64,000 bases of DNA from Planctomycetota bacterium (GTDB lineage Bacteria > Planctomycetota > Planctomycetia > Planctomycetales > Planctomycetaceae), in NCBI GenBank assembly GCA_003388505.1, contig QQVO01000077.1, positions 1-64,000 of the forward strand, read 5' to 3'. Below the pieces are notes generated by a model. The model searched no databases and was not told the DNA's origin. It saw nothing but the letters and a program-made list of their open reading frames with translations. Position numbers and translations under genes: made by a program. Position 1 is the stretch's first letter; each line of letters begins with the position of its first letter. Below, piece by piece: positions 1-45,966 of this stretch.

Positions 1-142
1 ACAACAGAATGCCGAGCAGGTCGCGCCAGCGAAACGGAGTCTGCTGCCAGGCGAGCACGGCGGCGAACAGCGCAAACGGCAGCGCAAAGACCGTGTGGCT
101 GAAGCGGATCAGGCTGAGGAAATGCGGCAGGCGATCAAGCAT
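1..142 (-). CDS. UbiA-family prenyltransferase, N-terminal fragment cut by window edge
   Basis: The minus-strand frame opens with ATG at 142 and runs off the left edge after 47 codons. The visible start reads MLDRLPHFLSLIRFSHTVFA, followed by an alanine/leucine-rich first membrane segment. The IRFSHTVFALPF stretch is the usual N-terminus of UbiA prenyltransferases (4-hydroxybenzoate polyprenyltransferase type), integral membrane enzymes that attach a polyprenyl chain to an aromatic acceptor in quinone synthesis. An overlapping ATG at 146 meets a stop after three codons, so 142 is the start. The catalytic Asp-rich motifs lie outside the window, so the substrate class cannot be fixed. Confidence 0.8.
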   Translation of the reverse strand, partial: MLDRLPHFLSLIRFSHTVFALPFALFAAVLAWQQTPFRWRDLLGILL

Positions 143-206
143 GCATGTCGTCAATCGGATTAGGCGGAAATGATCAACTCGATGACAAGCTAGCCGCCGT
201 GGACGC

Positions 207-818
207 TTACCGGTGGAAATCAAGTGGAAGACGGAACAGATTCCGGAGCGACTCGTGCCATTTGGGGAGCGCCGGCCGCAAGGAATTCCTTGACAGTTCG
301 TTCAATTCACTCGCTGCGACGGCATCGAGGTAAAACAGGACCATCGCTTGTCCATTGTCCTTACAGAAGAAGCGGTAACCGTCCCGTTCAATGTCCGTCA
401 TGACGCGAGAAACAGTCACAGGGTCTGCCCAGTCGGAATCAACTTCGACGTTCCAGTAACGCTGCTTGCCGTCAATCGTGTATTTCAGCCACGCTTCGTT
501 GGAGTCGAAGTCTATCGAATCTTCCACCTCAGAGCACAGGCCGGGCATTCCGGCGACTTCGCAGAGCCGATCGACAATTCTTACGTAGTCGCCGGGGTTT
601 TCGATGCATTCGCAGTCGAAATCCCAGACTCGAGAGCAGATCGGTCGTCCCCACGGCTCACGCTCGGCCTCGCTCCCGAGCACAAACAGCACGCAATCAA
701 AGGGTGCGCGCTCGTACGACTCGCGGTCAAACGACTCCAGGAGATCCTCAACTGACACGCCGTCGTTGAGTTCTAGTCCGAGATGACTGAGGCGTTCAAG
801 TTGTTCCTCAAGAGTCAC
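207..818 (-). CDS. conserved hypothetical protein, acidic, soluble
   Basis: This 203-residue protein starts with GTG at 818. It is acidic and has no membrane segment or signal peptide. It contains a segment FDCECIENPGDYVRIVDRLC, several Trp-containing blocks and a C-terminal helical part rich in Leu and Asn. Its layout resembles small, narrowly distributed single-domain proteins of the immunity-protein type, but no catalytic motif is visible and I do not recognise the family. No toxin gene is visible beside it. It may be a singleton acquired gene. Coding is supported by ordinary amino-acid composition over the full length. Confidence 0.6.
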   Translation of the reverse strand: MTLEEQLERLSHLGLELNDGVSVEDLLESFDRESYERAPFDCVLFVLGSEAEREPWGRPICSRVWDFDCECIENPGDYVRIVDRLCEVAGMPGLCSEVEDSIDFDSNEAWLKYTIDGKQRYWNVEVDSDWADPVTVSRVMTDIERDGYRFFCKDNGQAMVLFYLDAVAASELNELSRNSLRPALPKWHESLRNLFRLPLDFHR

Positions 819-958
819 TCACCGCTCGCTTTCTATTCGGGCAACTGTCGCTGGAACGGAATTCGCAAGATTCTTCCATAGCCGGTGTCAGAAGATGTGC
901 TGTACCATAGTGACACCATTTACGTCCTCGTCCTCATACCGCAGACTGCCCTCAGGTT

Positions 959-3079
959 TCACGCGCCGGACGGGAGGAACGCACCGTGGCGATCGAGGAA
1001 TGTCCTCAGTCGCGATACGGCAGCCCGTTTTTCCACCTCGCGCTGGTCGACGTGGTAGTCGGTCGGCCGGCCGGTCCCGCGGATGTAATACAGCGCCAGT
1101 TCCTCGATGGCACGATTGCCGTTTTCCAGCCAATCGACCAACTGACGGCAAATGGCCGGGTCGCGCAAATCGTCCCTCGAATAGCCCCACAGCAGCGTGT
1201 AAACGATGGCGCCGTCCTCGGCGCGGAAGAAGCGGTCGATCGCCTCCTGCAGGCGCTGGTCGTTGGCCGGATCAAGCGGCAGCCACTGACGAAGGCCCAC
1301 GATGGCGGCGACGCGTGATTCCATGTGGGACGAATCGAGAGCGCGCAGCAGTTCTCTGACGTTGGAGGTCAGCGCCAAAGTCTTGACCGCGTACTCCGAC
1401 ATGTTGGGGTCCGGATCCTTGACGACGGCGGGCACATTGAGAATCGCGGGCTGATCGGCCACGAAATTCTTTTCGTACCGGACGGCCAAGGCACGCTCAA
1501 GCGGAATCTGCGGAGGCCCGTTCGGCGTGAGCCAGCGGGGCATGACCAGCAGGTTACCGGGCTCGGCTTCCGGAGCGTCGATCGGCCAGGGGAGCCAGCC
1601 CCTACCGGGCTGCATGACGATCCGCCGGCCGACGTCGGTGGTGACAATCACCGTCCCCTCACGAACGAAGAGTCCTCCGCCGACCGAACGGTCAAATTCT
1701 TCGCCTTCCTCCGGCTTCCCGTGCGGCTGGATCGGAATGACTTCGACTCCGCACAATGTTCCGGGATCGGCCAATTCGAGATGGATCAGATTCTCGCCGA
1801 TTCTTACGTCGACATGCGCGGGGGCCGCATCGGCGTCCTGCCCGGACGAACGGTAAAAGGCCACTCGCCCCTGAGTGACGTCGAACCCGATGAGCGACAC
1901 GTCGCTGGGACCGATGCTCGTCAACCGGGCGCCGCCGTTGACCAGCACCTCAAACCGATCGTCCCCGACGCGCAGCCGCGAGAAAAACGGTTCGGGACAG
2001 GCGATCGTTTCGCCCGGGTGGATGAAACCACGGCGGGGAACAACCATCCATCCTGTCGATTCGTGTTCGTCTTCGACGAGCGTCTCGAGCCGCAGCAGGA
2101 CTCCTTCGAGACTTGTGTACATCACCTGGGGAAGATCGACCGCAGGCGCGGCCGGCGGGGCATCCTCCGGTCGGGCGGCGTCGGGATCGGCCGCGGGCTC
2201 CGGGGCGTCATCCAACGGATCGTTGTCGGGAGGGAGCGTTGCAGCGCCCGCCGGTTTGTCGTCGTTCATCTCGGCCTCCAGATCGGGCGGCGGGGGCGGG
2301 TTGATCGCAACTTCAGGGGCCTGCGGCTGATCAGACGGTTCCTGCTGCGCCGCAGGAGGTTCCGCCGCATCGGACGTGCCATCCGGTGCTGTCTCCGCGT
2401 CGGCGAGGGGCGCGGGGACCAGAGCAAGATCCTGTGTCTCCGCAGGCCGCTCCACGTGGGAACCACCCCAGAATGTGGGATCGGTCGCCACAAGTCCGAG
2501 CCACCCGGCCAGGATCAGCAGCACGGCGACCGGCACCAGCCGCTTCCAGATCGACCCGGAACCGCCGTAGTTGGGCAAACCGCTGCCGAATTCGGAGGCA
2601 GGTTTTGCAGCCGGTGTTTCTGAAGCCTGCGAGGCAGTTGCGACTGCTGCGCGCTCCCCCCTCCCGCGGCCGTTTTCTCCGGTTTCCGGTCCTGCAACGG
2701 CGCCGAGGGAGTACATCCGTTCCCGCATGGTCGCGGAGACATCGACCGGTTCGCCGAGCACGAGCGTGAGAATCTGATGACAGGCCGCGACTTCGGACAG
2801 ATGAATGTCCGACTCGAGGCAGATGCGCTCGACGTTGGCCACTTCCTCCGGGGACAGTGTGTTGTCGAGGTACTCGGCAACGATATTCGGATCAGGGCCG
2901 GAACCGGCGCCGGAAAGTTCCGGAGCGGTCACCCGTCGGCGACGCATCACTTCCCGGACTTTCTCGACCATTTCCGTGGCCACGGGGCTTTCGGCGATCT
3001 TTTCGCCGATTTCCCGAGCGTCGCCTGGCTCAAGAATGTCGTCGAGGTAGGCCAGCAGCGTTCGTAATGTCAGTCGCAT
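959..3079 (-). CDS. anti-sigma-like single-pass membrane protein with FecR-like outer domain
   Basis: The predicted protein has 706 residues. Residues 1-125 are helical and open with MRLTLRTLLAYLDDILEPGD, a conserved planctomycete start resembling the cytoplasmic part of anti-sigma factors but without a zinc-binding His/Cys set. One membrane segment follows at about 181-198, then a Pro/Ala/Glu-rich linker to about 320 and a large outer domain. Part of that domain (DRFEVLVNGGARLTSIGPSD) resembles FecR-like beta structure, and the C-terminal 200 residues look alpha-helical. The ATG at 3079 is preferred because GGAAGGA lies just upstream; a GTG at 3094 is in frame but less likely. A role in envelope sensing or ECF-sigma control is inferred; no sigma-factor gene is visible next to it. 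Confidence 0.7.
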   Translation of the reverse strand: MRLTLRTLLAYLDDILEPGDAREIGEKIAESPVATEMVEKVREVMRRRRVTAPELSGAGSGPDPNIVAEYLDNTLSPEEVANVERICLESDIHLSEVAACHQILTLVLGEPVDVSATMRERMYSLGAVAGPETGENGRGRGERAAVATASQASETPAAKPASEFGSGLPNYGGSGSIWKRLVPVAVLLILAGWLGLVATDPTFWGGSHVERPAETQDLALVPAPLADAETAPDGTSDAAEPPAAQQEPSDQPQAPEVAINPPPPPDLEAEMNDDKPAGAATLPPDNDPLDDAPEPAADPDAARPEDAPPAAPAVDLPQVMYTSLEGVLLRLETLVEDEHESTGWMVVPRRGFIHPGETIACPEPFFSRLRVGDDRFEVLVNGGARLTSIGPSDVSLIGFDVTQGRVAFYRSSGQDADAAPAHVDVRIGENLIHLELADPGTLCGVEVIPIQPHGKPEEGEEFDRSVGGGLFVREGTVIVTTDVGRRIVMQPGRGWLPWPIDAPEAEPGNLLVMPRWLTPNGPPQIPLERALAVRYEKNFVADQPAILNVPAVVKDPDPNMSEYAVKTLALTSNVRELLRALDSSHMESRVAAIVGLRQWLPLDPANDQRLQEAIDRFFRAEDGAIVYTLLWGYSRDDLRDPAICRQLVDWLENGNRAIEELALYYIRGTGRPTDYHVDQREVEKRAAVSRLRTFLDRHGAFLPSGA

Positions 3080-3345
3080 TTCCCGTCCTTCCACATTCGT
3101 GGGCGGCCTCGCAATCAGCCGTCTCTCCCCTGTTAGTGGGGGCCGGCGCGGAGCATCTTGCAGAGAAATTGCCGAATTTCCGAGATTTCAGAAAATGAAG
3201 TCCGAAGCTCAATTGCAGCCATGAGAACCGGTTAGGCAGCGCTTGATTTCGACGGACCCATTCCGGAGAATCGCGTCGCCGTTGCGACGGGTTCCGACGC
3301 ACACGGACTGCAAAAAGCCCCTGAAAACATCACAGATTGAGCGTT

Positions 3346-4254
3346 ATGTCGATCGAGCGCGCCGAACAGCTCAAACGCGAGTTCACTGACAAGTTCGTGG
3401 TTGTCGCCGAGGGCGTGCCTGAATTGAGACGATTCGCGGGCCTGACGGGTCGCGTCAAGACGGTCAACATGAACTGCCGGGCGCTGGTGCAGTTTGACGG
3501 CCCGGCCGACATCGGCTGGTACGACATCGATTCGTCCTACCTCAAGCTCGTCGACGCGCCTCGGAAAACGAAGCAGGCGGATTCTCATGCCGCACCCGCG
3601 GCGGTGAAATCTGCGCCGGCCAAATCGTCCGGAAAGAGCCCGCTGGAACAGGCGCGGGCGCAAGGTGCGGCTGGGGCCGGTGCTGCTGCTGCGAAAAGCG
3701 ACAAGCCTCTGTCCCCTCTGGAATTGGCGCGTCAGCAGGGGGCCGCGAAGTCGGGCGGTGGCGCCGCGAGTGCTCCGGCTGAAAAGCCGGCAGCCGCAGC
3801 CGAACCCGGAAAGAAGCTCTCACCGCTCGAACTCGCCCGGCAACAGGGAGCGGCCAAGTCCGGGGGCGCGGCGACGAGCGCTCCGGCGGAGAAACCGGCG
3901 GCTGCGCCGGCGGGAGACTCCGGCAAGAAGCTTTCCCCCTTGGAATTGGCCCGGATGCAGGGCGCCGTCGGTTCCGGAGGAGCGGCGTCCAGCGCGCCTG
4001 CCGAGAAGCCCGCCGCCCCGGCCGAATCCGGAAAGAAGCTTTCGCCGCTCGAACTGGCTCGTCAGCAAGGCGCCGCAAAGAGCGACGATGCGCCGCCGGC
4101 AGCCGCACCGGCGGCCCCGGAAGCCGCTGAGGAGCCGCCTGCTGCGGAGGCAAGCGCTGCGCCGGCGGCGTCCCCGCAGACGGTCGACGCATCGAATCTT
4201 TCGACGGCTGAGATTATCGAGTTGGCCCGCCAGCAAGGGGCGTTCAAGGGATAG
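3346..4254 (+). CDS. repeat protein with SPLELARQQGA motifs
   Basis: The protein has 302 residues from ATG 3346 (an upstream in-frame TTG at 3337 is less likely). Residues 1-75 form a compact domain ending near DGPADIGWYDIDSSYLKLVD, probably a small beta fold. The rest is built from units of about 36 residues: an Ala/Pro/Lys-rich spacer followed by a helical motif close to SPLELARQQGA. Five such motifs are followed by a C-terminal variant reading STAEIIELARQQGAFKG. No signal peptide or membrane segment is seen. Similar 'AEI..LAR.QG' motifs with Ala/Pro spacers occur in planctomycete proteins of several kinds, so a short peptide-docking motif on a flexible tail is plausible. The function is unknown. 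Confidence 0.7.
   Translation: MSIERAEQLKREFTDKFVVVAEGVPELRRFAGLTGRVKTVNMNCRALVQFDGPADIGWYDIDSSYLKLVDAPRKTKQADSHAAPAAVKSAPAKSSGKSPLEQARAQGAAGAGAAAAKSDKPLSPLELARQQGAAKSGGGAASAPAEKPAAAAEPGKKLSPLELARQQGAAKSGGAATSAPAEKPAAAPAGDSGKKLSPLELARMQGAVGSGGAASSAPAEKPAAPAESGKKLSPLELARQQGAAKSDDAPPAAAPAAPEAAEEPPAAEASAAPAASPQTVDASNLSTAEIIELARQQGAFKG
3629..4245 (+). repeat. in-gene array of six LARQQGA-motif units
   Basis: Motif copies begin near 3629, 3711, 3817, 3931, 4039 and 4210. Units 2-5 are 36-38 codons apart and share both the motif and the SAPAEKPAA spacer, so they look like recent duplications. The first and last copies are diverged. Synonymous positions differ between copies. Confidence 0.8.
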
Positions 4255-4335
4255 GTCCCGGGAAGGGACGACTGTTGATGGCCGGCGGTGGAGGAGCGGC
4301 CTGACGCCAAAGTCGAGATACAGAAAGTGTTCTTC

Positions 4336-4644
4336 ATGATCCACGTCCTGGCGACCGTCGAGTTGCAGCCCGGCACGCGAGCTGACTTCTTGAAGGAGTG
4401 CCACGGCAACGTCGACACGGTCCGTGACGAAGACGGCTGCCTCGAGTACGGCCCGGCGGTGGACGCTGCGACGGACATTTCCCAGCAGGAACGGCGGGGC
4501 GAAGACGGCGTCACGATTATCGAGAAGTGGCGCGACGTGGACGCTTTGAAAGCTCACCTGGCCGCGCCGCACATGACGTCCTACCGGGAGCGCGTCAAGC
4601 CGTATGTGAAGAACGTCCGTTTGCACGTTCTTGAGCCGGCGTGA
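4336..4644 (+). CDS. antibiotic biosynthesis monooxygenase (ABM) fold protein
   Basis: The small protein (102 residues from ATG 4336) opens MIHVLATVELQPGTRADFLK and contains ITIIEKW-like and DALKAHLAAPHM segments. These are the hallmarks of the dimeric alpha-beta barrel ABM/YgiN family (first strand, GxxxxFL helix, EKW strand, AHxxxxH-like segment). Members act as cofactor-free monooxygenases on quinol-like substrates or simply bind small ligands. An in-frame start at 4288 would add a non-conserved extension, so 4336 is preferred. It lies 81 bases after the repeat-protein gene and 50 bases before a membrane-protein gene. The substrate is unknown. Confidence 0.75.
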   Translation: MIHVLATVELQPGTRADFLKECHGNVDTVRDEDGCLEYGPAVDAATDISQQERRGEDGVTIIEKWRDVDALKAHLAAPHMTSYRERVKPYVKNVRLHVLEPA

Positions 4645-4694
4645 TACCTTGCAGATGGTCACCGTGAGTCGAGTTGCGGCAGATTGAGGTTTCC

Positions 4695-5147
4695 ATGGGT
4701 GAGCAGATCCCGGCACTGATATTCGGCCTGCTCCTGGCCGCAGGCGGAGTGGCCGGACTCATCTGGCATATACGGGCCTGGCGCAGTCACCGGGAAGACG
4801 AGCAGCTTTCGGGTGAGGAACTCCGCTACTACCGGCGGCAATTCTTTCGCCGGATCCAGACGACGGGGCTGATCGCCGTCATCGGCGTGATGCTGCCGAT
4901 CGGGGCGAATCTCGACATTCAGGCGAATCCCGGGTGGTCGATTGTGATCTGGATGATCATTCTCGGGCTGGCGTTGTGGGTGATGGTGCTCGGCTTCGGT
5001 GATTTGTTCTCCACACGGCTGCACGCACGCGACGCCATTTCGCGGCTCAAGGCGCTCAAGCAGGAACAGCGTAGTCTCGAACGTGAGGTCGCGCGGCTGC
5101 GGGCGGAGGCTACCGGCGACGACGGGACAAAGCGGAAACCAGAATGA
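4695..5147 (+). CDS. conserved small membrane protein with C-terminal coiled coil
   Basis: The 150-residue protein begins MGEQIPALIFGLLLAAGGVA; the ATG at 4695 has GAGG five bases upstream. Three membrane segments are visible, at about residues 5-25, 55-72 and 83-105, with a charged loop (WRSHREDEQLSGEELRYYRR) between the first two. The last 40 residues form a charged helix (LKALKQEQRSLEREVARLRA) of coiled-coil character that should face the cytoplasm. No catalytic motif is seen. It resembles planctomycete proteins known only as hypothetical. It may form an operon with the neighbours on both sides (gaps of 50 and 66 bases). Confidence 0.7.
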   Translation: MGEQIPALIFGLLLAAGGVAGLIWHIRAWRSHREDEQLSGEELRYYRRQFFRRIQTTGLIAVIGVMLPIGANLDIQANPGWSIVIWMIILGLALWVMVLGFGDLFSTRLHARDAISRLKALKQEQRSLEREVARLRAEATGDDGTKRKPE

Positions 5148-5213
5148 GCGAGCGGATCCGGGGCGTGTGCGGCGTCAGCGGACTGTTGTGTCTCCAACCT
5201 CGAGCGCGAAGTC

Positions 5214-5501
5214 ATGTCCGAAGTCCCGTCGCCCGTCCGCGACCGCGATGAACGCCTCTACGTTCCGGAACAGGAGGGCTGGAAAGCCCGCATCAAGGAT
5301 GGCTGGGAAAAGCAGTACTGCTTTTACAAGCGGCCGGGCGAGGATTTCTTCCACCTGCTGATGAGCGGCGAGATCTTTCTGCAGCGCGGAGAAGAACAGG
5401 TCTGCCTGATGTGCGCGCTGCGACGCGGAATCGTCACGACCGACCGGCTCTACTGGCAGCGCGCCGAGCGGCGAGTGAGGGAGAAGTCTCCGAAGGCGTA
5501 G
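5214..5501 (+). CDS. conserved hypothetical protein, small, soluble
   Basis: This 95-residue protein is rich in aromatic and charged residues (EKQYCFYKRPGEDFFHLLMS) and has no signal peptide or membrane segment. The two cysteines in the C-terminal half (VCLMCALRRG) form a CxxC, which could bind metal, but a single CxxC is weak evidence. It follows the membrane-protein gene by 66 bases on the same strand. I do not recognise a characterised family. The start ATG sits in the context GCGAAGTC-ATG, without a strong ribosome binding site. Confidence 0.55.
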   Translation: MSEVPSPVRDRDERLYVPEQEGWKARIKDGWEKQYCFYKRPGEDFFHLLMSGEIFLQRGEEQVCLMCALRRGIVTTDRLYWQRAERRVREKSPKA

Positions 5502-5573
5502 CAACCGGTCGGTAAGAAACTGGGAAAGAATTGGTTCTCGAATATTGGTGGACGTGCTGACGTAATGTAGTCC

Positions 5574-5612
5574 ACTCGCTCCGCGAGTAGACATGCGACT
5601 CGCGGAGCGAGT
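5574..5612. repeat. palindromic repeat family E, copy 1 (double)
   Basis: Two 15-base palindromes, ACTCGCTCCGCGAGT (5574-5588) and its reverse complement (5598-5612), lie nine bases apart. Each can fold alone or the two can pair with each other. The second copy and its flanks match the copy at 25620-25640 over about 28 bases. The element lies between convergent genes, so it could also act as a bidirectional terminator; there is no T-run. Confidence 0.85.
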
Positions 5613-5637
5613 CGCCCACATCATTGATCCCCGGTCG

Positions 5638-7257
5638 CTAAGCTTCGACCACTCGCCCCACAGCCGTCTCGGCGTACTCGTCGGACGGCGGGGTGCTCTC
5701 TTCCTCGAACGGGAAGTCCGATGACGCACTCCACCATCGCTCGGCGTCCTCCCGGCTCCAGGCGTCTGCGTCGGTGCAGCTTGCCAGCGCCGATTCGAGT
5801 TCCGCCGCCGAGGAAAATCGATCGTCGGGCGACTTCGCCAGGCACTTGAGGACGATTGCTTCGAGATCGCGGGGGATCTCCGAGACGATTTCGGTGGGAG
5901 GAACAGGGGCCTCCTTCGCATGGGCGAAGACGATCTGCAGCGGCTGCTCTCCCTTGAAGACGGGACGGCCGGTCAGCACGAAGTAGGCCGTCGCACCGAG
6001 CGAGTAGATGTCGGCGCGGGCGTCGACCGGGCCGCCGCCGACGGTCGTCTCGGGGGCCGAGTACATCGGCGAACCGACGACGACGCCTTCGAGTGTGTGG
6101 TTGGCGTCCCCTTCGACGGGACCGGTCGATTTGACGAGCCCGAAGTCGAGCAGCTTCGCGAAGTCGCGAATCCCGCCCCGTTCCGCGGCGAAGACGTTGG
6201 CCGGTTTGATGTCGCGATGGATCAGGCCGGTGGCATGCGCCTCTTCCAGCGCCTCGCAGACCTGCCGCAGGAGATGAATGACACGGGCCGGCGACATCGG
6301 TCCGGTGCGTTCGACGATCTCCTGCAGGCTCATGCCGGGCAGGAACTCCATCACATAGAAGAACACACCGTCAGCGGTGAGACCATAGTCGTAAATCTCG
6401 ATCGTGTTCGGATGCGTGAGTCCGGCCGCCGCCTGCACCTCGCTTTCGAAGCGGGCGGCCGCCGAAGCGTCCCCCGCGCGATCGGGCCGGATGATCTTCA
6501 CGGCGCATGGCCGCTTGAGCAACCTGTGCTCCGCCAGAAACACCTCGCCCATGCCGCCCGAACCGAGTTTGCGCTTGAGCGTGTAGACGCCGACTTTTTT
6601 GAGGTCGAACGCTTCCTGACGCAGTGCACCGAAGCGGTGGGAACCGTAGACGGCAATCACTGCGGCGATGCTCATCTGCAGCAGATTCACGCTCAACGCG
6701 CCGTCGCGCAGCGCCTCGAAGATCAGGGGTTGCTGAAAGCCTGCCGCGACGGCGGTCGCCGTGGGACCGAGCGCCATCAGTCCGACAACCACGGCGGTGC
6801 GGCGACACGAGTTCGGAATGAACAGCCCGTACACCTCCAGCAGCAGAATCCAGGAGACTCCGGAAGAGAGGTAGCGATACGCGAACACGGCGGCATCTCC
6901 CGACGGCGCCAGGGTGTAGTATTGATACTGCATGAACGCCAGAAATGCGGCGGGCAGAGCGAACATCACCACTTCGGCGGCGTGCAAAGCGCGCAACGAC
7001 AACTGGCATTTGCGGCAGAGCAGGACGACCAGCAGGCCTTCCGCCAGAGTCACGATCACGTGCGGAATGCGAATCGCGCTTTGTAGGCGGGCGAATTCCG
7101 CGTCCCCCATCAGGCTCTGCAGAAAGAAGGCCGCGAAGCCGCCGAACAGGATGATTGCGGCGATCCGCAACCGGCCGCGCAGCAGGTTCCGCACCTGGCC
7201 CTCGAACTCAAGCGCAGAACTGGCAATCAGCCCCATGTGGGGGCAGAAGCCGTGCAT
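5638..7257 (-). CDS. membrane-anchored serine/threonine protein kinase
   Basis: The N-terminal part (residues about 30-210) contains about six membrane segments. The C-terminal part (about 226-490) is a Hanks-type kinase: LGSGGMGEVF glycine loop, AVKII with the ATP-binding lysine, HRDIKPANV catalytic loop, LLDFGLVKS metal-binding DFG and a MYSAPE activation-segment end. All catalytic residues are present. The kinase domain is C-terminal to the membrane part, the reverse of the usual PknB order, and no outer sensor domain is seen. The frame stays open to 7572, but those extra 105 residues are Arg/Ser/Pro-rich and lack conserved character, so the ATG at 7257 is preferred with moderate certainty. 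The protein ends in a 60-residue acidic tail. Confidence 0.88.
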   Translation of the reverse strand: MHGFCPHMGLIASSALEFEGQVRNLLRGRLRIAAIILFGGFAAFFLQSLMGDAEFARLQSAIRIPHVIVTLAEGLLVVLLCRKCQLSLRALHAAEVVMFALPAAFLAFMQYQYYTLAPSGDAAVFAYRYLSSGVSWILLLEVYGLFIPNSCRRTAVVVGLMALGPTATAVAAGFQQPLIFEALRDGALSVNLLQMSIAAVIAVYGSHRFGALRQEAFDLKKVGVYTLKRKLGSGGMGEVFLAEHRLLKRPCAVKIIRPDRAGDASAAARFESEVQAAAGLTHPNTIEIYDYGLTADGVFFYVMEFLPGMSLQEIVERTGPMSPARVIHLLRQVCEALEEAHATGLIHRDIKPANVFAAERGGIRDFAKLLDFGLVKSTGPVEGDANHTLEGVVVGSPMYSAPETTVGGGPVDARADIYSLGATAYFVLTGRPVFKGEQPLQIVFAHAKEAPVPPTEIVSEIPRDLEAIVLKCLAKSPDDRFSSAAELESALASCTDADAWSREDAERWWSASSDFPFEEESTPPSDEYAETAVGRVVEA

Positions 7258-7641
7258 CGAGTCGCAGGCTTCGTCACTCTGGCCCGGATGGCTGGAAGTC
7301 GTCTTCAAACCGGTCTTCTCGGATTGATCTCGCCTGGCATGCGGCACGATGGATCTTTCCGTGTTGCGGTGATTCCGGTTGCTCCGGGGTCCGGCCGTCG
7401 GCCTTGAAACCGGCACTCGGGGCCTTGGCTCGGCCGATGAGCGACGCGGCCGATGATCTCGGATTATAGGCGGGGCAGATTCGTCAGAGAACCGCGGAAA
7501 TCCGAATGAACGCGAGGACCGCGACACGGACAGCGACAGGTTGGATACGCTGGGCGTACGGGAAACGACCACCAGCGCACTGTGGGAAGTCTGTTACCGC
7601 ACCGTGAGTGCGAAGACCTCGGCATTGTCCAGATGCAGACG
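7258..7641. other. upstream region of the kinase gene, no gene seen
   Basis: The minus-strand kinase frame remains open here, but the encoded residues look non-coding. If the start at 7257 is right, this holds the kinase promoter and the spacer to the PIG-L gene. I see no RNA gene and no strong promoter. Confidence 0.4.
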
Positions 7642-7671
7642 GATGAGTTAGAGCAAATTGCTCTAATCATC
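7642..7671. repeat. stop-codon palindrome family G, copy 1
   Basis: The perfect core TTAGAGCAAATTGCTCTAA (7648-7666; 9-bp arms, one-base loop) is extended by GATGA/TCATC, giving 14 pairs with one bulged base. The TAG stop codon of the PIG-L gene forms the start of the hairpin on the minus strand. It may act as a transcription terminator or 3' end stabiliser for that gene, though no U-run follows. The copy at 45967-45983 has the same relation to rpsR. Confidence 0.8.
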
Positions 7672-8679
7672 CCCGAAGAAAGGGAACAGTTCCCGCAGTT
7701 CGTCTTTGCTGGGCTGACGGCCGTACTCGCAGATTTCGAAAGCCTCCGCTGAGCCGACGTCCTCTGCGGCCTCTCCGTACCATTCGGCCAATTCCTCCCG
7801 GAACCGGTCGGCTGTGCGAGCGAAGCGGCGGCGGAAGCCGTCCTCGACCTGCTGCTGCCGCGCTGTGCGCTCTTCGGGCGTCTGCGGAAGTTCGGTCGTG
7901 CCGCTGCAGCAGCCCCCTTCGTAGAACTGCGACTCCAGCGCTTCGGTGCAGGCCAGTTTCTTTTCGAGGACGTCGTCGATTGACACCACAATGTCGGCCG
8001 AAAAGGGATTCGGCTTCTGGAAGCGGTCTTCGTAATAGAGGAAGACCGGGTTCTTCGAAAGCGGGGGAACGTCGGGGCAGAAGAACGGGACGATCACCAT
8101 GTAGGCCGCGTCCTGAATCAGCAGCCCGGCGTTGCGATGGTCGGGGTGATAATCGTTGGGCCGGTGGCACATCACGATGTCTGCGTCCCATTCGCGGATC
8201 AGTCGCGTAATGGTGCGTCGATTCTCGAGCGTGGGCAGGAGTTCGCCGTCGTGGATATCAAGCACCTGCGACTCGATGCCGAGGATCTCGGCGCAGCGCT
8301 CGACCTCGGCTGTTCGCCGCTGAGCGAGGGGGCCGCCGGCCATCTGCCAATGTCCGATGTCGCCGTTCGTGAGGGAAACGAATTTGACGTGGTGCCCCTG
8401 CCCGGCCCACTTGGCGGCGACGCCGGCTGCGCGAAGTTCGCAGTCGTCGGGGTGGGCGCCGAAGCAGATAATCCTGAGCTTGCCGTCGTCGGGGACCGGC
8501 GCGAGGTTCGCGGCGACGGCCGCAGCCGTCTGTTCGAGGACAATTGCCTCCTGCACGGGCGCTCCCACATCGGCGCTCACGTGCGGCGTGGAATCGTGCG
8601 CGAGACCGGCCGCAAACCACACGACGGTTGCCACAACAGCACCGGCCAGAAACGGGACCAACGATGAACGGCAGGTCAT
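7663..8679 (-). CDS. PIG-L/LmbE family deacetylase, exported or membrane-anchored
   Basis: The 338-residue protein starts at ATG 8679 with GGGAGAG upstream. An N-terminal hydrophobic segment (SLVPFLAGAVVATVVW) is a signal peptide or anchor. The zinc-binding AHPDD motif (in ICFGAHPDDCEL) and the second metal motif YHPDHRNAGLL are both present, as in PIG-L deacetylases that remove acetyl groups from N-acetylglucosamine-type substrates. The family also includes bacillithiol and mycothiol enzymes. Planctomycetes carry many exported paralogues of unknown substrate. The frame continues upstream to 8895, but that part is translation of a tRNA-Leu gene and is not protein. The stop codon lies inside a palindrome. 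Confidence 0.9.
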   Translation of the reverse strand: MTCRSSLVPFLAGAVVATVVWFAAGLAHDSTPHVSADVGAPVQEAIVLEQTAAAVAANLAPVPDDGKLRIICFGAHPDDCELRAAGVAAKWAGQGHHVKFVSLTNGDIGHWQMAGGPLAQRRTAEVERCAEILGIESQVLDIHDGELLPTLENRRTITRLIREWDADIVMCHRPNDYHPDHRNAGLLIQDAAYMVIVPFFCPDVPPLSKNPVFLYYEDRFQKPNPFSADIVVSIDDVLEKKLACTEALESQFYEGGCCSGTTELPQTPEERTARQQQVEDGFRRRFARTADRFREELAEWYGEAAEDVGSAEAFEICEYGRQPSKDELRELFPFFGDD

Positions 8680-8747
8680 GATGCGCTCTCCCTGAAGATG
8701 TAGGACGACGGTGTGCGCTGATCGCCCGTGCGTCGCGCACCCTGAAT

Positions 8748-8830
<83 letters not shown>

Positions 8831-9043
8831 CGGGAAAAAACGCGACGCCTTTGCGGCTCTGCGTCACGCGGTGTTGAGCATACTGAGTTTCGCACATCGG
8901 TTGCAGGGTGTGAGCGAGGACATGCAACGGACGCGAGTCAGGTCAGCGTGATGTGCGGGGTTTCACTCATAGTGGTGTGGTCGCTTGAACCACTGCGGCG
9001 TGCAGGTCATCATCAGGTTGGCGGGCGCTGACAACTGGTGGTG

Positions 9044-10900
9044 ATGATGCAAGACCGTTATGACATTCTGATCGTGGGCAGCGGCGTCGCCGGATCGATG
9101 CTGGCGCTGATTCTCGGCCGCATGGGTGTGCGCGTGCTGGTGATCGAGAGGGGGGCGCACCCCCGCTTCGCCATCGGTGAATCGACGCTGCCCACGACAA
9201 CGCTCCTCCTGCGGCGGCTCGCCGAGGAGCACGACGTGCCGGAACTGGCGGAGATTGTGCACTACTTCGGCTTGCGGCGGCTGGGAATCACGTGCTATCC
9301 GAAGCAGCACTTCTGGTTCGGTTATCATCGAGCCGGACAGCCGATGAGCGACGGTGAGGAACTGGTGCTCGACACCGTGCGCCCGCCGATCGGTCCGGAC
9401 GTGCACGTGCTGCGCGAGGAACTCGACGCGTTTCTGGTGTCGCGGTTTTCGAAGTACCAGGTCGATTATTCGGATCGGACGGAACTCAAAGCGTTCGAGT
9501 ACGATGGGAAGGAGGCCGTCGTCCGATTGGCGACCCGCGACGGTGAGCGGGATGTTCGCGCGCAGTTGGTCGTTGATGCATCCGGCCACGCGTCGTGTCT
9601 CGGGGCGCGCTTCGGGCTGCGGGAGAAGCAGACGCGGCTGACGACCCGTTCGCGATCGTTGTTCGGTCATTTTCGCGGCGTCAAGCCGCTGGACGAGGCG
9701 GTCGATCGCCCGTACCGCTTTCGCCGGGAGAGAGACCGAGGAACGGTTCACCATGTGTTCGACGGCGGCTGGTTGTGGGTCATTCCGTTCGACCACGGGA
9801 TTACGAGTGTCGGACTTCAGATCGACCCGAATCGTTTTCCACTGGACCGGGAGGTTGACCCGGAAGTCGAACTGAGAAGCTGGATCGATCGCTTTCCCAC
9901 GATTCGCGCCCACTTGGGCGAGATGCGTCCGATCCGGCCGCTCGTGCGCACCGGGCGCGTGCAATTCTCATCGACCAGGATAGTCGGCGATGGTTTCGTG
10001 CTGACTCCGCACGCGGCCGGGTTCATCGATCCGTTGTACAGCACCGGTTTGTTGATGTCGGCGATGTTCATCACGCGGTTCGCCGCGATTGTGCCCCGAT
10101 GTCTGGCGACCGGTGATTTTTCCGCAGCCCGTTTCCAGCCTGTCGAAGATCATTTCCTCACGGAACTCGAGCACATGGACCGGGTGGTCGGCGGGACGTT
10201 TGCGTCGTTCCGGGACTTTCAGGTCTTCCGCCAGTTCTGGCGGGTGTACACGCATTCAAGCGTGCTGCAGTATTTTGGATCGGCGGCGGTGGGAACCGAG
10301 TTCCTGGCCGACAATCCGATGTTGTACGGCGCCGCATTCCCAGCGTGGCGCGAGTCGACCAGACGGATGCACGCCCTGGTGGAAGACCGAACGCGACCTG
10401 CTGCGGAGATCGCGCGCGAACTCCGCCGGATGATGGATGCCATCCCGCATCCGTTTCGAAACAGCCGCTACGATCCTCCGGCTGGGTCGCCGGTCCACCT
10501 CGATACACGGATTGACCAGCCCTTCGTGATCCGCTACCTGTTGTCGTTTATCCGGGAACCGGAACTCCGGGATCACGCCCGCGTGCTGCCGCAACTGCCG
10601 ATGCTGATGGATGTGCTGGGATTCGGCCCGGGGCGTCCCCGGTTGGCCGCGCGGTATCTGTTGTCGCGGGCCCGCGGCGGGGGATTCCACCACTGGATGG
10701 ACCGGATTGACGGGGCCGAGGCCGACGTCGAGCCGGCCCGGCCGACGGAATTTGAGAGACAACGGCCGGTGGCGACGCTGGCCGGCGACGTGCGTCGCGT
10801 TGAAGCGGCTCATCAGGCCAACGAACCGCACGGCATCAACGCACCGGCCGGTTCCGCGGCGTCAGCCGTGGAGCGAGAAAACGCCGTGCGCCAGGGATGA
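9044..10900 (+). CDS. FAD-dependent oxidoreductase of the flavin-dependent halogenase-like family
   Basis: The protein has about 618 residues. It opens with a Rossmann FAD-binding segment (DILIVGSGVAGSMLALILGR), followed by the IGESTLP motif and the GGWLWVIP motif, which matches the WxWxIP signature of flavin-dependent halogenases. A possible active-site lysine lies in CYPKQHFWFGY, but I cannot align it with certainty. Halogenases use reduced FAD to make HOCl at that lysine; related enzymes are plain monooxygenases or reductases. The start is one of GTG 9038, GTG 9041, ATG 9044 or ATG 9047. A desaturase gene follows after 46 bases, which suggests joint modification of a lipid-like or polyene substrate. 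The C-terminal 70 residues look disordered. Confidence 0.75.
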   Translation: MMQDRYDILIVGSGVAGSMLALILGRMGVRVLVIERGAHPRFAIGESTLPTTTLLLRRLAEEHDVPELAEIVHYFGLRRLGITCYPKQHFWFGYHRAGQPMSDGEELVLDTVRPPIGPDVHVLREELDAFLVSRFSKYQVDYSDRTELKAFEYDGKEAVVRLATRDGERDVRAQLVVDASGHASCLGARFGLREKQTRLTTRSRSLFGHFRGVKPLDEAVDRPYRFRRERDRGTVHHVFDGGWLWVIPFDHGITSVGLQIDPNRFPLDREVDPEVELRSWIDRFPTIRAHLGEMRPIRPLVRTGRVQFSSTRIVGDGFVLTPHAAGFIDPLYSTGLLMSAMFITRFAAIVPRCLATGDFSAARFQPVEDHFLTELEHMDRVVGGTFASFRDFQVFRQFWRVYTHSSVLQYFGSAAVGTEFLADNPMLYGAAFPAWRESTRRMHALVEDRTRPAAEIARELRRMMDAIPHPFRNSRYDPPAGSPVHLDTRIDQPFVIRYLLSFIREPELRDHARVLPQLPMLMDVLGFGPGRPRLAARYLLSRARGGGFHHWMDRIDGAEADVEPARPTEFERQRPVATLAGDVRRVEAAHQANEPHGINAPAGSAASAVERENAVRQG

Positions 10901-10946
10901 GCGGCCCCACGTCGAATTCGAGACTGCGGTTTGAGGTGCAGGGACA

Positions 10947-11777
10947 ATGACGGAATCGGTCACAGACGCGGCAACCGCACAGATTCCCAGCAGCACATGG
11001 ACGACCCCGGCCGAATTGAGGCGGCTCGAAATCTCCGCGACGTTGTGTCTGGTTCTGATCTGGGTACTGATAATCTGCGCGTTTCAGGGTTGGCTGCACC
11101 CAGCCGTGCTCCTGATCGCGCCGCTGCTTTACATCCGGTTTGAACTGAACGCCCATGAGCTGATTCACGCCTGCCGGGCCACCGATCTGAACCCGATCGT
11201 GCGGTACATGCCGGCCGGACAATCGATCTATCACATGGGGTACGAAGGTTATCGCCGCAACCATCTGGACCACCATCGGTTTGTCGGGACGAAGGACGAC
11301 CCGGAGCGATACCTGGTCGACGGCCCTGCCTGGCTGGCGGCGATCAAGTCGGTCGGATGCATCGACGTCGCCGCCGTTCGGTACGTGCGGCTGTACCACA
11401 AATCGTTTACCTGGCGGGACTATCTGGAGGCGTTGTTTCACGTGGCTGCCTTCGTCGGCCTGCTGCTGTGGAACTGGCGAGTCTTTCTGGTGTACTTCGT
11501 TTCACTGCGCGTGATGGTGGGGCTGGCCGACTTCTTCTTCCACCGCAGCCTGCATGCCGAAGGTGATCCGATCGCAAGGTGGTTTCGCCGGATCGACAAG
11601 GCTTACCCGTGGCTGTTCGGTTGCTGGCTGGGTCGCCACATGACGTCGATCCTGGTCTGGCACGACGCTCACCACGCCTATCCCCGCGTCTCAGCGCGGA
11701 ATCTGCCGGAGGTGGAACAGCTCGCCGGCCAGGCTGAAGGGGCGACTCATACCGAGCCGGCGACGGCGACGGCGTAA
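10947..11777 (+). CDS. membrane fatty-acid desaturase/hydroxylase family protein
   Basis: The 276-residue protein has three His boxes of the membrane di-iron desaturase family: HELIH, NHLDHH and WHDAHH. About four hydrophobic segments are visible (for example near residues 33-65 and 150-175). The family inserts double bonds, hydroxyls or ketone groups into acyl or carotenoid chains at the membrane face. The spacing between boxes 1 and 2 (about 35 residues) fits the FA_desaturase domain. The gene follows the halogenase-like gene by 46 bases and is probably co-transcribed with it. The precise substrate cannot be read. Confidence 0.85.
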   Translation: MTESVTDAATAQIPSSTWTTPAELRRLEISATLCLVLIWVLIICAFQGWLHPAVLLIAPLLYIRFELNAHELIHACRATDLNPIVRYMPAGQSIYHMGYEGYRRNHLDHHRFVGTKDDPERYLVDGPAWLAAIKSVGCIDVAAVRYVRLYHKSFTWRDYLEALFHVAAFVGLLLWNWRVFLVYFVSLRVMVGLADFFFHRSLHAEGDPIARWFRRIDKAYPWLFGCWLGRHMTSILVWHDAHHAYPRVSARNLPEVEQLAGQAEGATHTEPATATA

Positions 11778-11843
11778 GCGGCCCGATACAGTTCTGCTGA
11801 ATCATCTCAAAACCTCCCTGTGCAACTTGAAGGACGGCAACTC

Positions 11844-12875
11844 TTGAAATCTCCGGCGCCTTTCCGATTGAGTGTACGCCGCCTCGTGGCGGCAACGGCC
11901 GCCGCGGTCATCGCGGCTTTGCCAACGCAAGCCGCCGACGATGACAAGTACGCCGGCCTCAGTAGCGGTGACTATCTGGGGCGGGTCGAAGTGCTGGCGA
12001 CGGTCGAAGACGACGAGGTCTTTACCGAAGGACCGGCCGTTGCGCGGGATGGAACGGTCTACTTCACCAACGTTCCTGTCAGCAAGATTCTGCAGTATGA
12101 TCCGGCGAGCGAAGAGCTGTCGGTCTTTCGCGACGCGACGAACGAGACGAACGGCCTCTACTTCGATCCCGACGGCAACCTGCTCTGCTGCGAAGGAGGC
12201 GCCGGTCGCGTGACGCGGCAGGACATGTCGAGCGGCGAGATCGAGGTTCTTGCGGACGAGTACAACGGGTTTCCTTTCGCCGCGCCGAACGACCTGTGCC
12301 TGGACAGTCAGGGGCGCATCTACTTCACATCCCGCCCGGGGGTTGAGGATCCGGAGAAGGGCAACCCGAACGCCGTTTACCGGATCGATCCCGACGGAAA
12401 CGTTGCTCAGTTGCTCAAGTGGCCGCAGGTCCATATGCCGAACGGAATCGTGATTTCCCCCGACGAGAAGACACTCTACCTGATCGAGGCGCATCCCGAC
12501 GCCGATCATCACCGCGACATTCGAGCCTACGACCTGCACGAGGACGGTTCACTGTCAGGGGAGCGGGTGCTGATCGATTTCTATCCCGGTCGCAGCGGGG
12601 ACGGCATGTGCATCGACTCGGAAGGCAACCTGTACGTCGCAGCCGGCCTGCACGAGACGCGCGGGACGAGTGAAACGCTCGACACGCGGCCGGGAGTTCA
12701 CGTCATCTCTCCGGAGGGAGAACTGCTCGCGTTCCGCGCGACGCCGGAGGACACGATCGCGAACTGTACCTTCGGCGGCAAGGATCTGAAGACGCTCTAT
12801 GTCGCCTGCGGAACGAAACTGTTGGCAATCCCGACCGTGATTCCGGGAAAGGCGAGCTATCGTCCGGGGCAGTGA
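11844..12875 (+). CDS. exported SMP-30/gluconolactonase-like beta-propeller protein
   Basis: The mature part has the SMP-30/LRE pattern: FTEGPAVARDGTVYFTNV at the N-terminus, APNDLCLDSQGRIYFTS with the metal-binding Asn-Asp, MPNGIVISPDEKTLYLIE, and GDGMCIDSEGNLYVA near the C-terminus. These supply the Glu, Asn and Asp ligands of the divalent metal in a six-bladed propeller. A TTG start at 11844 has GAAGGA nine bases upstream and gives a clean signal peptide (KSPAPFRLSVRRLVAATAAA). A GTG at 11820 in the same frame is the alternative. The family hydrolyses sugar lactones or organophosphates; the substrate here is unknown. It may be co-transcribed with the desaturase (gap 66 bases). Confidence 0.85.
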   Translation: MKSPAPFRLSVRRLVAATAAAVIAALPTQAADDDKYAGLSSGDYLGRVEVLATVEDDEVFTEGPAVARDGTVYFTNVPVSKILQYDPASEELSVFRDATNETNGLYFDPDGNLLCCEGGAGRVTRQDMSSGEIEVLADEYNGFPFAAPNDLCLDSQGRIYFTSRPGVEDPEKGNPNAVYRIDPDGNVAQLLKWPQVHMPNGIVISPDEKTLYLIEAHPDADHHRDIRAYDLHEDGSLSGERVLIDFYPGRSGDGMCIDSEGNLYVAAGLHETRGTSETLDTRPGVHVISPEGELLAFRATPEDTIANCTFGGKDLKTLYVACGTKLLAIPTVIPGKASYRPGQ

Positions 12876-12911
12876 TGCTTCGTGTGAGTGGGGACAGGTT
12901 GAGATTCTGTC

Positions 12912-14042
12912 CTACTGGTTTGTGCATTGGGACTGCCAGCGGAGCCAGTGGTCGGCGAGGACGATGGCGATCATGGCTTCGGCCATGGGGACGAATCGCG
13001 GCAGCAGGCAGGGGTCGTGACGGCCCTTGGTGCTGATCGACGTTCGCTCGCCGTCTTTGCTGATGGTTTGCTGCTCGATGGGCAGGCTGCTGGTCGGCTT
13101 GACCGCGGCGCGAAGGACGATCGGCATGCCGGTCGAGATGCCGCCAAGCATTCCGCCGTGCCGATTGGTTTCGGTTGAGACCTCGGGCTTTTCGCCGCCG
13201 CCCGGTGCGGGTTCCGCAGTGAAAACGTCGTTGTGCCGGCTGCCGCGCATCGTCACGCAGCCGAAGCCGATGCCGTATTCCACCCCCAGCACCGCCGGAA
13301 GGCTGAAGAGCGCCTTGGCCAGGTCGGCCTTCAGCTTGTCGAAGACCGGTTCTCCCAGACCGGGCGGAACGTTGGTCGCAACAATCTCGGCAGCGCCGCC
13401 GATCGAGTCGCCCGCTTTGCGGCACTCTTCGATGAGGGCGATCATCCGTTCGGCGGCCGCCGCATCAGGACAGCGCACAATGTTCGGTGAGCCGTCGACC
13501 GACCGCTCCACCTGTTCCAGTGTGACCGCCGCCGGATCGGGGACGTCGGCCCGAATGTCGCCGACCTGCACCACGTAGCCGGTCACGCGCCCGCCGAAAG
13601 CTGCTTCAATCAGCTTCTTGGCGACGACGCCCGCTGCCACGCGGACCGTCGTCTCCCTGGCGCTGGAGCGTCCGCCGCCGCGATAGTCCCGGAAGCCGTA
13701 CTTGGCGTCGAACGAATAGTCGGCGTGGCCGGGACGGTAGACGTCCTTGATCGCCGAGTAATCCTTGCTTCGCTGATCGCGGTTGCGAATCAGAATCGCA
13801 AGACTCGTTCCGGTCGTGTGTCCCTCGAAGACCCCCGACAGGATTTCCGGAACGTCCGGTTCGTCCCGCTGGGTGACGATCTTGCTCTGTCCCGGTCTGC
13901 GCCGGTCGAGATCGATCTGGAGATCGTCCACCGAGATCGGAATCCCCGGCGGAACGCCGTCGATGATGACGACGTTCCCCGGGCCGTGGCTTTCGCCGGC
14001 CGTTGTGATCCGAAAGGCCTGTCCGAATGAGTTGCCTGGCAT
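12912..14042 (-). CDS. aroC: chorismate synthase
   Basis: The 376-residue protein from ATG 14042 carries the three chorismate synthase signatures: GESHGPG near the N-terminus, [19 protein letters not shown] in the middle and RHDPCLLPR near the C-terminus. The enzyme converts EPSP to chorismate using reduced FMN, the last common step of the shikimate pathway. The length fits the family (350-390). The frame continues upstream to 14240, but that part reads through a palindromic repeat and is not conserved. No other shikimate gene is adjacent; the dehydroquinate-synthase homologue at 21016 is probably not a partner. Confidence 0.97.
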
Positions 14043-14098
14043 GGGGCCATTGTAGCAGCGAGGACGCGATGCGCGACGCGTGAAATCGAAACGATCCT

Positions 14099-14168
14099 CG
14101 TTCCCGAACCTCAATCCCGGAACGCCGGTCAACAATGCGGGGTGTGCCCAAACAGAAGTTTGGGCACA
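14099..14168 (-). repeat. composite two-hairpin element family A, copy 1 (inverted)
   Basis: Hairpin 1 has arms TGTGCCCAAAC (14143-14153) and GTTTGGGCACA (14158-14168) with a 4-base loop. Hairpin 2 has CGTTCC/GGAACG ends (14099-14104, 14119-14124). The spacer is 18 bases. The order is reversed relative to the copies at 25701 and 27647. It lies between aroC and glcF. Confidence 0.85.
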
Positions 14169-14240
14169 AGGTGTGAACAATGCGCGGAGTGAAATGACAC
14201 TACCCGAGGTGGAGTCACATGGTGCCCACAAGTCACTCAC

Positions 14241-15587
14241 CTACTCGCCGAGCCCGTACGCGCGGGCCAGCAGTTCTACAGGGTGCACGACCGGAATATC
14301 CGCACCGGCGGCCTTCAGTTGCGCCTGAATCTGCAGTGTGCAACCGGCGTTTCCGCAAACCACGGCGTCCGCCCCGGTGGCGAGGATGTGATTCAGTTTG
14401 CGGGCGCCGAGCCGATCGGCCATTTCGCCTTCCATCAGGTTGTAGCTGCCGGCCGCACCGCAGCAGATGTCGGATTCGACCAGCGGAACGAATTCCAGTT
14501 CGGGGATCATCCCCAGCAGGCTGCGCGGCTGCTCGCGAACCCGCTGGGCGTGTGCGAGATGGCACGCGTCGTGGTAGGTCGCCTTGAGCGGCACCGGATT
14601 CGCCGGTTCGACCGGTCCGAGTTCCGCCAGAAACTCTGCCACGTCTTTGACCTTGTTCGAGAAGCGGCCCAGGCTCGCGGCGAGTGACTCGTCGTCCGGC
14701 CGCAGTTCATGAGCCATGTGGGCGTAATCCTTCAGCATCGACCCGCAGCCGGCGACGTTGACGATCACCGCATCGACGGAATCGACGTCGAAGGCGCCCG
14801 TGTTCGTCTCCGCGAGATCCAGTGCCGTTGTTCCAGCTCCGCTGTGGTAGTGAATCGCCCCGCAGCAGGCCTGTTCGCTCGGGATCACCACTTCACAACC
14901 GTTGGCCTGCAGCACGCTCGCCGTGGCGCGGTTCACATGGTGAAACAGGGCATCGGCGACGCAGCCTGTGAACAGAGCGACCCGCGCGCGACGCGGCCCC
15001 CTGGCCGGCAGCACATCCGGCAGCGGCTGCCCGCGCGGACGCAGGGGCGGAAGCAGCGCTTGCATGCGTCGGAGTTTGTCGGGCAACAGGTGAAAGAGTC
15101 CCATCGCGCGAGCAGCGCGATCGAGTCTCAGCATCTGCATCACTCGCGCCGGGGCGAGCGCCCAGCGGAGTCTCTTCGGATAGGGGAAGAGGCCATACAA
15201 AACGAACCGCTGAAACCACCCGCCGGACTTTTTCTGTCCAGCCGCGGCCGGGTTAGTCTGCATCTCGACGCGAAACGGCTCAATCAGACGGCCGTACTGG
15301 ACGCCCGAGGGACACGCCGTTTCGCAACTGCGGCAGTCGAGACAGAGGTCGAGATGCCGCGAGATCTTCTCAGACAGTTCCACGCGGCCGTCAGTCACGG
15401 CGCGCATCAGATAGATTCTGCCGCGCGGGCTGTCGTTTTCGTTTCCGGTTTCCAGATAGGTCGGGCAGGCGGCCGTACACAGACCGCAATGGACGCAGTC
15501 CAGGAACTTGTCGTAGTCGATCGAGCCGCCGATCCGGGGCGGCTGCGTGATCGGCGAATCGGTGGTGCTCGATGAATCGTGCGGCAT
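14241..15587 (-). CDS. glcF: glycolate oxidase iron-sulfur subunit
   Basis: The 448-residue protein has two [4Fe-4S] ferredoxin motifs near the N-terminus (CVHCGLCTAACP and CLDCRSCETACP) and, in the C-terminal half, two cysteine-rich CCG-type regions (around EQACCGAIHYHSG and ESDICCGAAGSYN). This is the GlcF/heterodisulfide-reductase-like arrangement. With GlcD and GlcE it oxidises glycolate (or lactate) and passes electrons to the quinone pool at the membrane. glcE lies just upstream on the same strand (gap 123 bases). No GlcD-type FAD subunit is in the window, so it must be elsewhere or replaced. Confidence 0.92.
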   Translation of the reverse strand: MPHDSSSTTDSPITQPPRIGGSIDYDKFLDCVHCGLCTAACPTYLETGNENDSPRGRIYLMRAVTDGRVELSEKISRHLDLCLDCRSCETACPSGVQYGRLIEPFRVEMQTNPAAAGQKKSGGWFQRFVLYGLFPYPKRLRWALAPARVMQMLRLDRAARAMGLFHLLPDKLRRMQALLPPLRPRGQPLPDVLPARGPRRARVALFTGCVADALFHHVNRATASVLQANGCEVVIPSEQACCGAIHYHSGAGTTALDLAETNTGAFDVDSVDAVIVNVAGCGSMLKDYAHMAHELRPDDESLAASLGRFSNKVKDVAEFLAELGPVEPANPVPLKATYHDACHLAHAQRVREQPRSLLGMIPELEFVPLVESDICCGAAGSYNLMEGEMADRLGARKLNHILATGADAVVCGNAGCTLQIQAQLKAAGADIPVVHPVELLARAYGLGE

Positions 15588-15710
15588 GCGCGTCTCATTC
15601 TGTGATCGCGCTGCGACGAGAGCGGTTGGTTGCCGCCGCGCGTGTTCTGCTTCGATGTGATTATAGACGGCCGCCTCGCGAAAAGAACCGGGGCCGCGAA
15701 CAGGGAATCT

Positions 15711-16946: not shown

Positions 16947-17029
16947 CAGGGGCCGCGGATGCGTTTGCGTCGGGGGAGTTTGATTCTGACGAGATCGATC
17001 GCCGAGCGCGGCATGTATGGCTGCGGGAA

Positions 17030-19174: not shown

Positions 19175-19268
19175 AACCGGCAACGTAGATCGTCGCCCGC
19201 CGATTGGCAAGGATTCACACCGCTGTTTGAAGTGTCATCCCCCCGATTGTCGGCGCATCAGCAACGCG

Positions 19269-25619: not shown

Positions 25620-25640
25620 GCGACTCGCTCCGCGAGTCGC
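25620..25640. repeat. palindromic repeat family E, copy 2
   Basis: GCGACTCGC/GCGAGTCGC arms of 9 bp close a 3-base loop. The flanking bases (ATGTGGGC before, G-TG after) also match the copy near 5590-5620 read on the other strand. Confidence 0.85.
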
Positions 25641-25700: not shown

Positions 25701-25770
25701 TGTGCCCAAACTTTCGTTTGGGCACACCGTCCGCAACAGATCGACGTTTCCAAACTGAGGTTTGGAAACG
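25701..25770 (+). repeat. composite two-hairpin element family A, copy 2 (best preserved)
   Basis: Hairpin 1 is TGTGCCCAAAC (25701-25711), loop TTTC, GTTTGGGCACA (25716-25726). Hairpin 2 is CGTTTCCAAAC (25745-25755), loop TGAG, GTTTGGAAACG (25760-25770). Both stems are 11 bp without mismatch and the spacer is 18 bases. Confidence 0.9.
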
Positions 25771-45793: not shown

Positions 45794-45966
45794 GGGCGCG
45801 TGCGATCAATGAGCGAACCCCGCCCCGGCCTGACGTCACCGGAATTGTCGTCGTTCCTCGCGGGCGAGGTGGGTGCGATTAGCGCGCTGTTGGAATGACC
45901 ATAGACGATCTGTCTCGCGGAATCTCGGGCGCGACAGTCCGAAAACCGCTCAACGTGGACCCATGG

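Follow-up and report, generated by a model that had tools for sequence, protein, structure and literature searches.

Stop codons supplied by the palindromic left end of a probable IS630/Tc1-mariner-type MITE in a planctomycete

Palindromes at the ends of the PIG-L and rpsR genes

The analyzed window, a 64,000-nucleotide stretch of contig QQVO01000077.1 from a Planctomycetaceae genome (GCA_003388505.1), carries a PIG-L family gene on the minus strand at 7663-8661 (start codon uncertain), whose product matches PF02585 with an E-value of 2.1e-26. The frame terminates GAT GAT TAG and ends at the palindrome TAGAGCAAATTGCTCTA, located at positions 7649-7665, the first three bases of which on the minus strand are the PIG-L stop TAG (7665-7663). 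With one further base on each side, 7648-7666 forms a perfect inverted repeat of 9+1+9 bases (TTAGAGCAAATTGCTCTAA) in an inverted-repeat scan of the window. The RNA of 7642-7671 folds into a single bulged stem of -18.6 kcal/mol because the outer arms GATGA/TCATC flank the palindrome, and none of 200 shuffles folded as well.

A counterpart was found on the minus strand at 45967-45983, where the palindrome opens with the stop codon TAG (45983-45981) of rpsR, encoding ribosomal protein S18 (PF01084; 45981-46259, minus strand). This hairpin alone is weaker, with -8.5 kcal/mol and 16 of 200 shuffles as good. Both palindromes are arranged as the preliminary description of this DNA had stated, including the in-frame TAG of PIG-L. 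The pattern TAGAGC-N{1,9}-GCTCTA occurred twice in the window and not at all in 100 shuffles.

Homologues of S18 were present in 22 of 24 relatives, and their C-terminus was cleanly readable by the end-finding script in five. In none of these five is an element present at the gene end, where the stops are ordinary (TAG, TGA, or TAA); the protein terminates at the matching position in four of them (G004, G015, G011, and G006) and one residue earlier in G019. The insertion at rpsR is thus placed at the natural end of the gene.

A dispersed element of about 104 bp

In the whole source genome (G000; 6.78 Mb, 78 contigs, with the window as bases 1-64000 of contig 34), the pattern was found 90 times, compared to 21 times for the reversed pattern. 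The spacer measured five bases in 50 of 50 palindromes among the matches listed, and palindromes with a 5-base spacer and an A/T centre numbered 87, against 0 for the reversed control. Of the 90 palindromes, 89 were fetched together with their surroundings; the alignment of the ends was made without five of these, three misoriented by the centre base and two solo. In nearly all of the 89, the palindrome is followed by a common sequence, giving a total length of approximately 104 bases (TAGAGCAAATTGCTCTACCATGTGTCCGCGTCGAGCGGTGTTTGGACTGTCGAGGACGAGAATCCGCGAGACAGATCGCCAACACTGATTTGCAAAGCGCTATA), and no common consensus appeared before the palindrome or beyond the right end. The boundaries are therefore those of a sharply delimited unit, and the palindrome at PIG-L and rpsR is the left end of this dispersed element, which is short, repeated, and non-coding with defined ends, and is referred to as a MITE in the following.

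An internal 20-mer, allowing up to two mismatches, recurred at 155 places with 0 in the control, so the family extends beyond the copies with perfect palindromes. An nhmmer search returned 132 places, which were reduced to 125 copies by requiring a model start of at most 3 and an end of at least 100 and by removing duplicates; this local set over-represents perfect palindromes, which were fetched first. The ends of the element in the source genome are weakly inverted repeats (TAGAGC and TATAGC), with only TA-K-AGC common to both, and the right end is more variable than the left. Folding of the full-length element is unremarkable (z -1.75, matched by 11 of 200 shuffles), and Rfam models gave no matches at E-values up to 1 in eight loci.

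The rpsR palindrome belongs to a complete copy at 45880-45983 on the minus strand, with its right-hand TA at 45880-45881; the profile match has an E-value of 6.8e-25, this copy being among the 84 used to build the profile. A probable right-half fragment, covering model positions 55-103, lies on the minus strand at 41561-41609 (E 1.3e-4).

Several other repeats were met in the window. A repeat of about 100 bp adjoins the probable fragment (around 41460-41610) and is also found in L023, L049, L077, and L079; the MITE copy in L077 sits inside a relative of it. A dispersed repeat of about 120 bp at 35322-35439 recurs with about 80% likeness at around 20 places within the portions of the genome that were fetched, and the flanks of the MITE in L005 match it. 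Hairpins with 4-base loops at 14143-14168, 25701-25726, and 25745-25770, built of TGTGCCCAAAC/GTTTGGGCACA (two copies) and CGTTTCCAAAC/GTTTGGAAACG, possibly represent a different palindrome family. Palindromes built on GCGACTCGC...GCGAGTCGC at 5574-5615 and 25620-25640 are possibly another repeat family, and a related GACTCG hairpin comes after the MITE in L046.

Distribution in the order

An extended pattern of the element was detected in six of 170 genomes and three of 58 genera of the order. The source genome and G004 held 78 and 71 matches, respectively, and G017, G168, G169, and G172 two to four each, those in G168 and G172 being counted from the pattern alone. The longer pattern also occurred in contigs of Planctomicrobium sp. 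SI075_bin134 and Planctomycetaceae bacterium HKST-UBA70; Planctomicrobium belongs to the Planctomycetaceae. Most of the copies viewed in G004 (13 loci) and G017 (four) have the palindrome in common, along with a CC..GTG.CCG-like stretch that follows it and a CGAG[AG]CAG core. Since they otherwise differ, the lineages seem to have their own MITE subfamilies.

Insertion target

Filled and empty sites could be compared in three cases inside other repeats (L028/L014, L087/L011, and L022/L182). In all three, the empty copy has one TA and the filled copy reads TA-element-TA. In the other empty-site alignments (L005, L048, L059, and L077) the joints were too diverged for a clean TA. The left TA is preceded by T or C in 114 of the 125 copies and the right TA is followed by A or G in 114, with both in 105. 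This context was present in only 178 of 1478 intergenic and stop TAs of the same stretches (p 3e-66), and the target is therefore YTAR. Under our placement of the ends, 88 of the 125 copies retain an intact right-hand TA. Dyads were rejected as favoured targets: flanking stems averaged 2.36 pairs at the 125 sites, compared to 2.27 at all control TAs and 2.36 at YTAR controls. Local folding was slightly stronger at the 125 insertion sites than at controls (p 0.009 and 0.0008).

Coincidence with stop codons

With gene calls from a codon-usage script, the first three bases of the MITE were the exact stop of a predicted gene in 38 of the 125 copies with both ends covered. No gene running in the forward direction stops elsewhere inside the element. 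The preliminary description had made a bias of such palindromes toward stop codons the touchstone of its proposal; on this count, 34 of the 89 fetched palindromes have their TAG exactly as an in-frame stop of a predicted gene. In G004, three of ten examined copies start at a predicted stop. On the opposite strand, the right end holds the stops of six genes: for three of them the right end reads GCTCTA and the stop occupies the equivalent position, and the other three use a TAG lying two bases deeper in the element; stops at the equivalent right-end position thus amount to three of 125 copies, compared to 38 at the left end.

Nearby empty TAs fell 163 times in stops, 1315 times in intergenic and 5253 times in coding sequence, and the corresponding numbers for empty YTARs were 36, 142, and 146. 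Relative to all TAs, stops are favoured 3.5-fold (p 2e-8), but relative to YTAR sites only 1.7-fold (p 0.057) before orientation is considered. The choice of YTAR as a target thus explains much of the stop bias. If only one orientation is tolerated at stops, 11% of copies would be expected there and 30% are seen (p 6e-9); orientation probably accounts for the rest of the bias, presumably through selection. The right-hand TA is intact in 23 of the 38 stop copies, and A or G follows it in 36 of these 38 and in 78 of the 87 others; being nearly as common away from stops, this base is no proof of a former stop.

In the proposed reading, to which we assign a probability of about 0.82, a non-autonomous MITE of the IS630/Tc1-mariner type, about 104 bp long, has the palindrome as its left end and preserves stops when inserted at YTAR. 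The element has the structure TA-GAGCAAATTGCTCTACC...TTTGCAAAGCGCTA-TA, and a transposase of the IS630 kind would insert it at the TA of YTAR, leaving a TA on each side. TAA and TAG stops have the form TAR. Because the first base of the element after the target TA is G, insertion on either stop with the left end first would yield TAG and leave the host protein unchanged. An insertion in reverse would place the common right end on the stop and turn it into TAT, so that the stop is lost; such insertions are expected to be rare. The rpsR copy would be one left-end-first insertion at a stop.

It had been proposed earlier that an element inserting at or supplying stop codons explains both palindromes. 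A TA-targeting MITE that gives TAG agrees with this proposal, the limit being that only 38 of 125 copies lie on a stop. By locus, the idea is essentially right for rpsR, and the PIG-L site, holding just a 17-base element end, calls for a later deletion.

The solo palindrome at PIG-L

The PIG-L palindrome is identical to the left end of the MITE, and no element body adjoins it on either side. Of the 89 fetched palindromes, 87 have a body on one side, and the only other exception is locus L073; there, a decayed element body lies about 100 bases further on, so that L073 may instead represent a copy that has been interrupted. A decayed body behind the PIG-L palindrome was rejected, as the best alignment was matched by 882 of 2000 shuffles and by 2524 of 3450 placements in the window background. 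Eight other places resemble the PIG-L site, each over only 21-36 bases around the palindrome.

Removal of GAGCAAATTGCTC and one TA gives a predicted empty site, GGATGATTAACTCATCC, with a TTAA target. This site would form a small hairpin holding a TAA stop (-7.5 kcal/mol, compared to -18.6 for the filled site), and the element would have inserted at the TTAA that held the PIG-L stop. The simplest route to the solo left end would be a deletion between two GCTCTA repeats, one within the palindrome and one at the right end. Right ends of this form are seen in several copies of the source genome, as well as in copies of G004, and such an end could collapse exactly to the PIG-L state.

Transposase partner

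The source genome carries an IS630-type transposase gene (L214) with the domains DDE_3 and HTH_Tnp_IS630. It is bounded by 14-bp inverted repeats (TAGAGCGCTCTGCA) in the outer context C-TA / TA-A, which is again YTAR. Read inward, the right end of the MITE agrees with the two ends of L214 at 17 and 16 of 22 positions, respectively. Agreement at 16 or 17 of 22 was reached at two of about 1.27 million background positions; ten further positions, which scored 21-22, are presumed to be unmasked MITE ends. One end of a second IS630-like locus (L215/L216) matches the MITE right end at 17 of 22. ISY100, an IS630-family element, shows near-exclusive insertion at TA, which it duplicates (PMC2170065). 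Taken together, these sequence resemblances suggest that the MITE may be mobilised by an L214-type IS630 transposase.

Among six genomes, a single exact match to the left end of L214 turned up, that of L214 itself. G004 has no DDE_3 gene, though it has 109 palindromes, so a present-day IS630 partner is absent there. IS630-type genes were matched nine times in G017, G168, and G172; one of them, L246 in G172, has TAGAGCGTTTCC at both ends, and the remaining matches are without clear likeness of their ends. An IS5-type mobiliser was rejected, since PF13340 gave one match (L213) with ends not matching the MITE. Part of a second IS630-like transposon, whose ends read CTAGTGGTCTGTCAC, was observed in L217 at 1269-1400 (G000:C17 near 80930); it directly adjoins a MITE copy, apparently with a TA common to both.

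The resemblance of the right end to IS630 ends also bears on a different origin, in which the palindrome is of the REP type and was moved by a RAYT (IS200/IS605-like) without target duplication, the flanking TA being half target and half element. With such repeats the element shares a high copy number and a terminal palindrome that has TAG at its foot, and TA on both sides, taken alone, is compatible with them; GTAG REPs provide TAG stops and occur in Planctomycetes according to parts of PMC3733652. However, the GTAG tag is missing, the base before TAG being T in 69, C in 45, G in nine, and A in two of 125 copies, and the element is about 104 bp long rather than a single palindrome of 20-40 bp. 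With the IS630-like right end in addition, a REP/RAYT origin is considered highly improbable.

Role of the hairpin

Among the 85 exact-core copies, i.e., those recovered by the internal 20-mer with zero mismatches, divergence was 6.2% in the palindrome and 6.35% in body positions 18-67. Perfect outer arms were kept in 52 and the leading TAG in 66 of the 85 copies, and nothing in them points to selection acting on the entire hairpin.

These values can be set against the suggestion of the preliminary description that the palindromes form a stop-proximal terminator family, and against the broader idea that selection retains them at gene ends as terminators or as hairpins that protect mRNA. In 38 of 125 copies the contact with a stop is exact and the orientation constant, which would suit such a family, as would the folding of the palindrome (-7.0 kcal/mol) and the many further copies within about 200 bases after a stop. 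However, the 87-bp body that follows is as conserved as the hairpin, a T-run after the palindrome is absent both in the consensus (CCATGTGTCC) and at PIG-L, and the whole element folds with a z of only -1.75. A scan of window positions 1-20000 for terminator-like sites did not list the PIG-L site, and of the 120 copies for which both neighbouring genes were called, 27 are located between divergent ones. There is no support for a selected terminator, since conservation of the hairpin does not exceed that of the body, and this explanation is very unlikely.

Conserved dyads can also be protein-binding sites, as those of SlmA, Noc, and MatP are. A 17-bp binding site spread by duplication would be in line with the perfect dyad, the constant spacer, and the near-constant sequence among the matches listed. 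Against it stand the element body beside 87 of 89 palindromes and a palindrome no better conserved than that body, which leave a binding site with hardly any probability.

Under the MITE reading, the element might further act as a stop-proof gene-end cassette, its left end shaped to provide a TAG and to put a hairpin at the point where translation ends, and certain copies might have become 3' ends or stabilisers of host mRNAs. The candidate copies are those at PIG-L, where the solo palindrome would lie inside an older small hairpin, and at rpsR; this extension, candidates included, is rather unlikely.

Comparison with known repeat systems

The family offers a countable case in which the YTAR rule and the first base of an element would make stop codons safe landing sites. 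About 30% of the examined copies are fused to gene ends with the protein unchanged. For dozens of genes of the source genome, one of them coding for a ribosomal protein, the stop and 3' flank would therefore be transposon-derived, a point that matters when terminators or regulatory hairpins are annotated from sequence. No earlier report of this planctomycete family was found in a literature search that mostly covered papers outside subscription.

The closest parallels come from other small bacterial repeats, as described in parts of the cited papers. RUP of the pneumococcus, associated with IS630-Spn1, is likewise about 107 bp long and non-coding, inserts at TA, and has ends resembling an IS630 element of its own genome (PMC2229807, PMC3049150). 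It differs in sequence and host, and the hairpin left end is a feature of the MITE; the descriptions of RUP in these sections of the two papers contain nothing on stop codons. Correia/NEMIS and ERIC (RU-1) are also small non-coding repeats with TA termini (PMC2229807), though of other sequence and from other hosts. ERIC/RU-1 can fuse to the 3' end of a gene, but in the amidase example given in PMC2759123 the normal stop was lost, whereas the MITE leaves the stop in place.

Two known systems supply stops themselves. In GTAG REPs, found in Planctomycetes too, the palindrome end is often the TAG stop of a neighbouring gene (PMC3733652, in part); the MITE differs from these by the lack of the GTAG tag (G before TAG in nine of 125 copies), its greater length, and its IS630-like right end. 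BOX repeats of the pneumococcus encode the stop of 36 genes but have another sequence, a modular structure, and ISSpn2 as their proposed partner (PMC3049150, in part). The planctomycete MITE is thus a new family, and both the kind of element and repeats that supply stop codons were already known.
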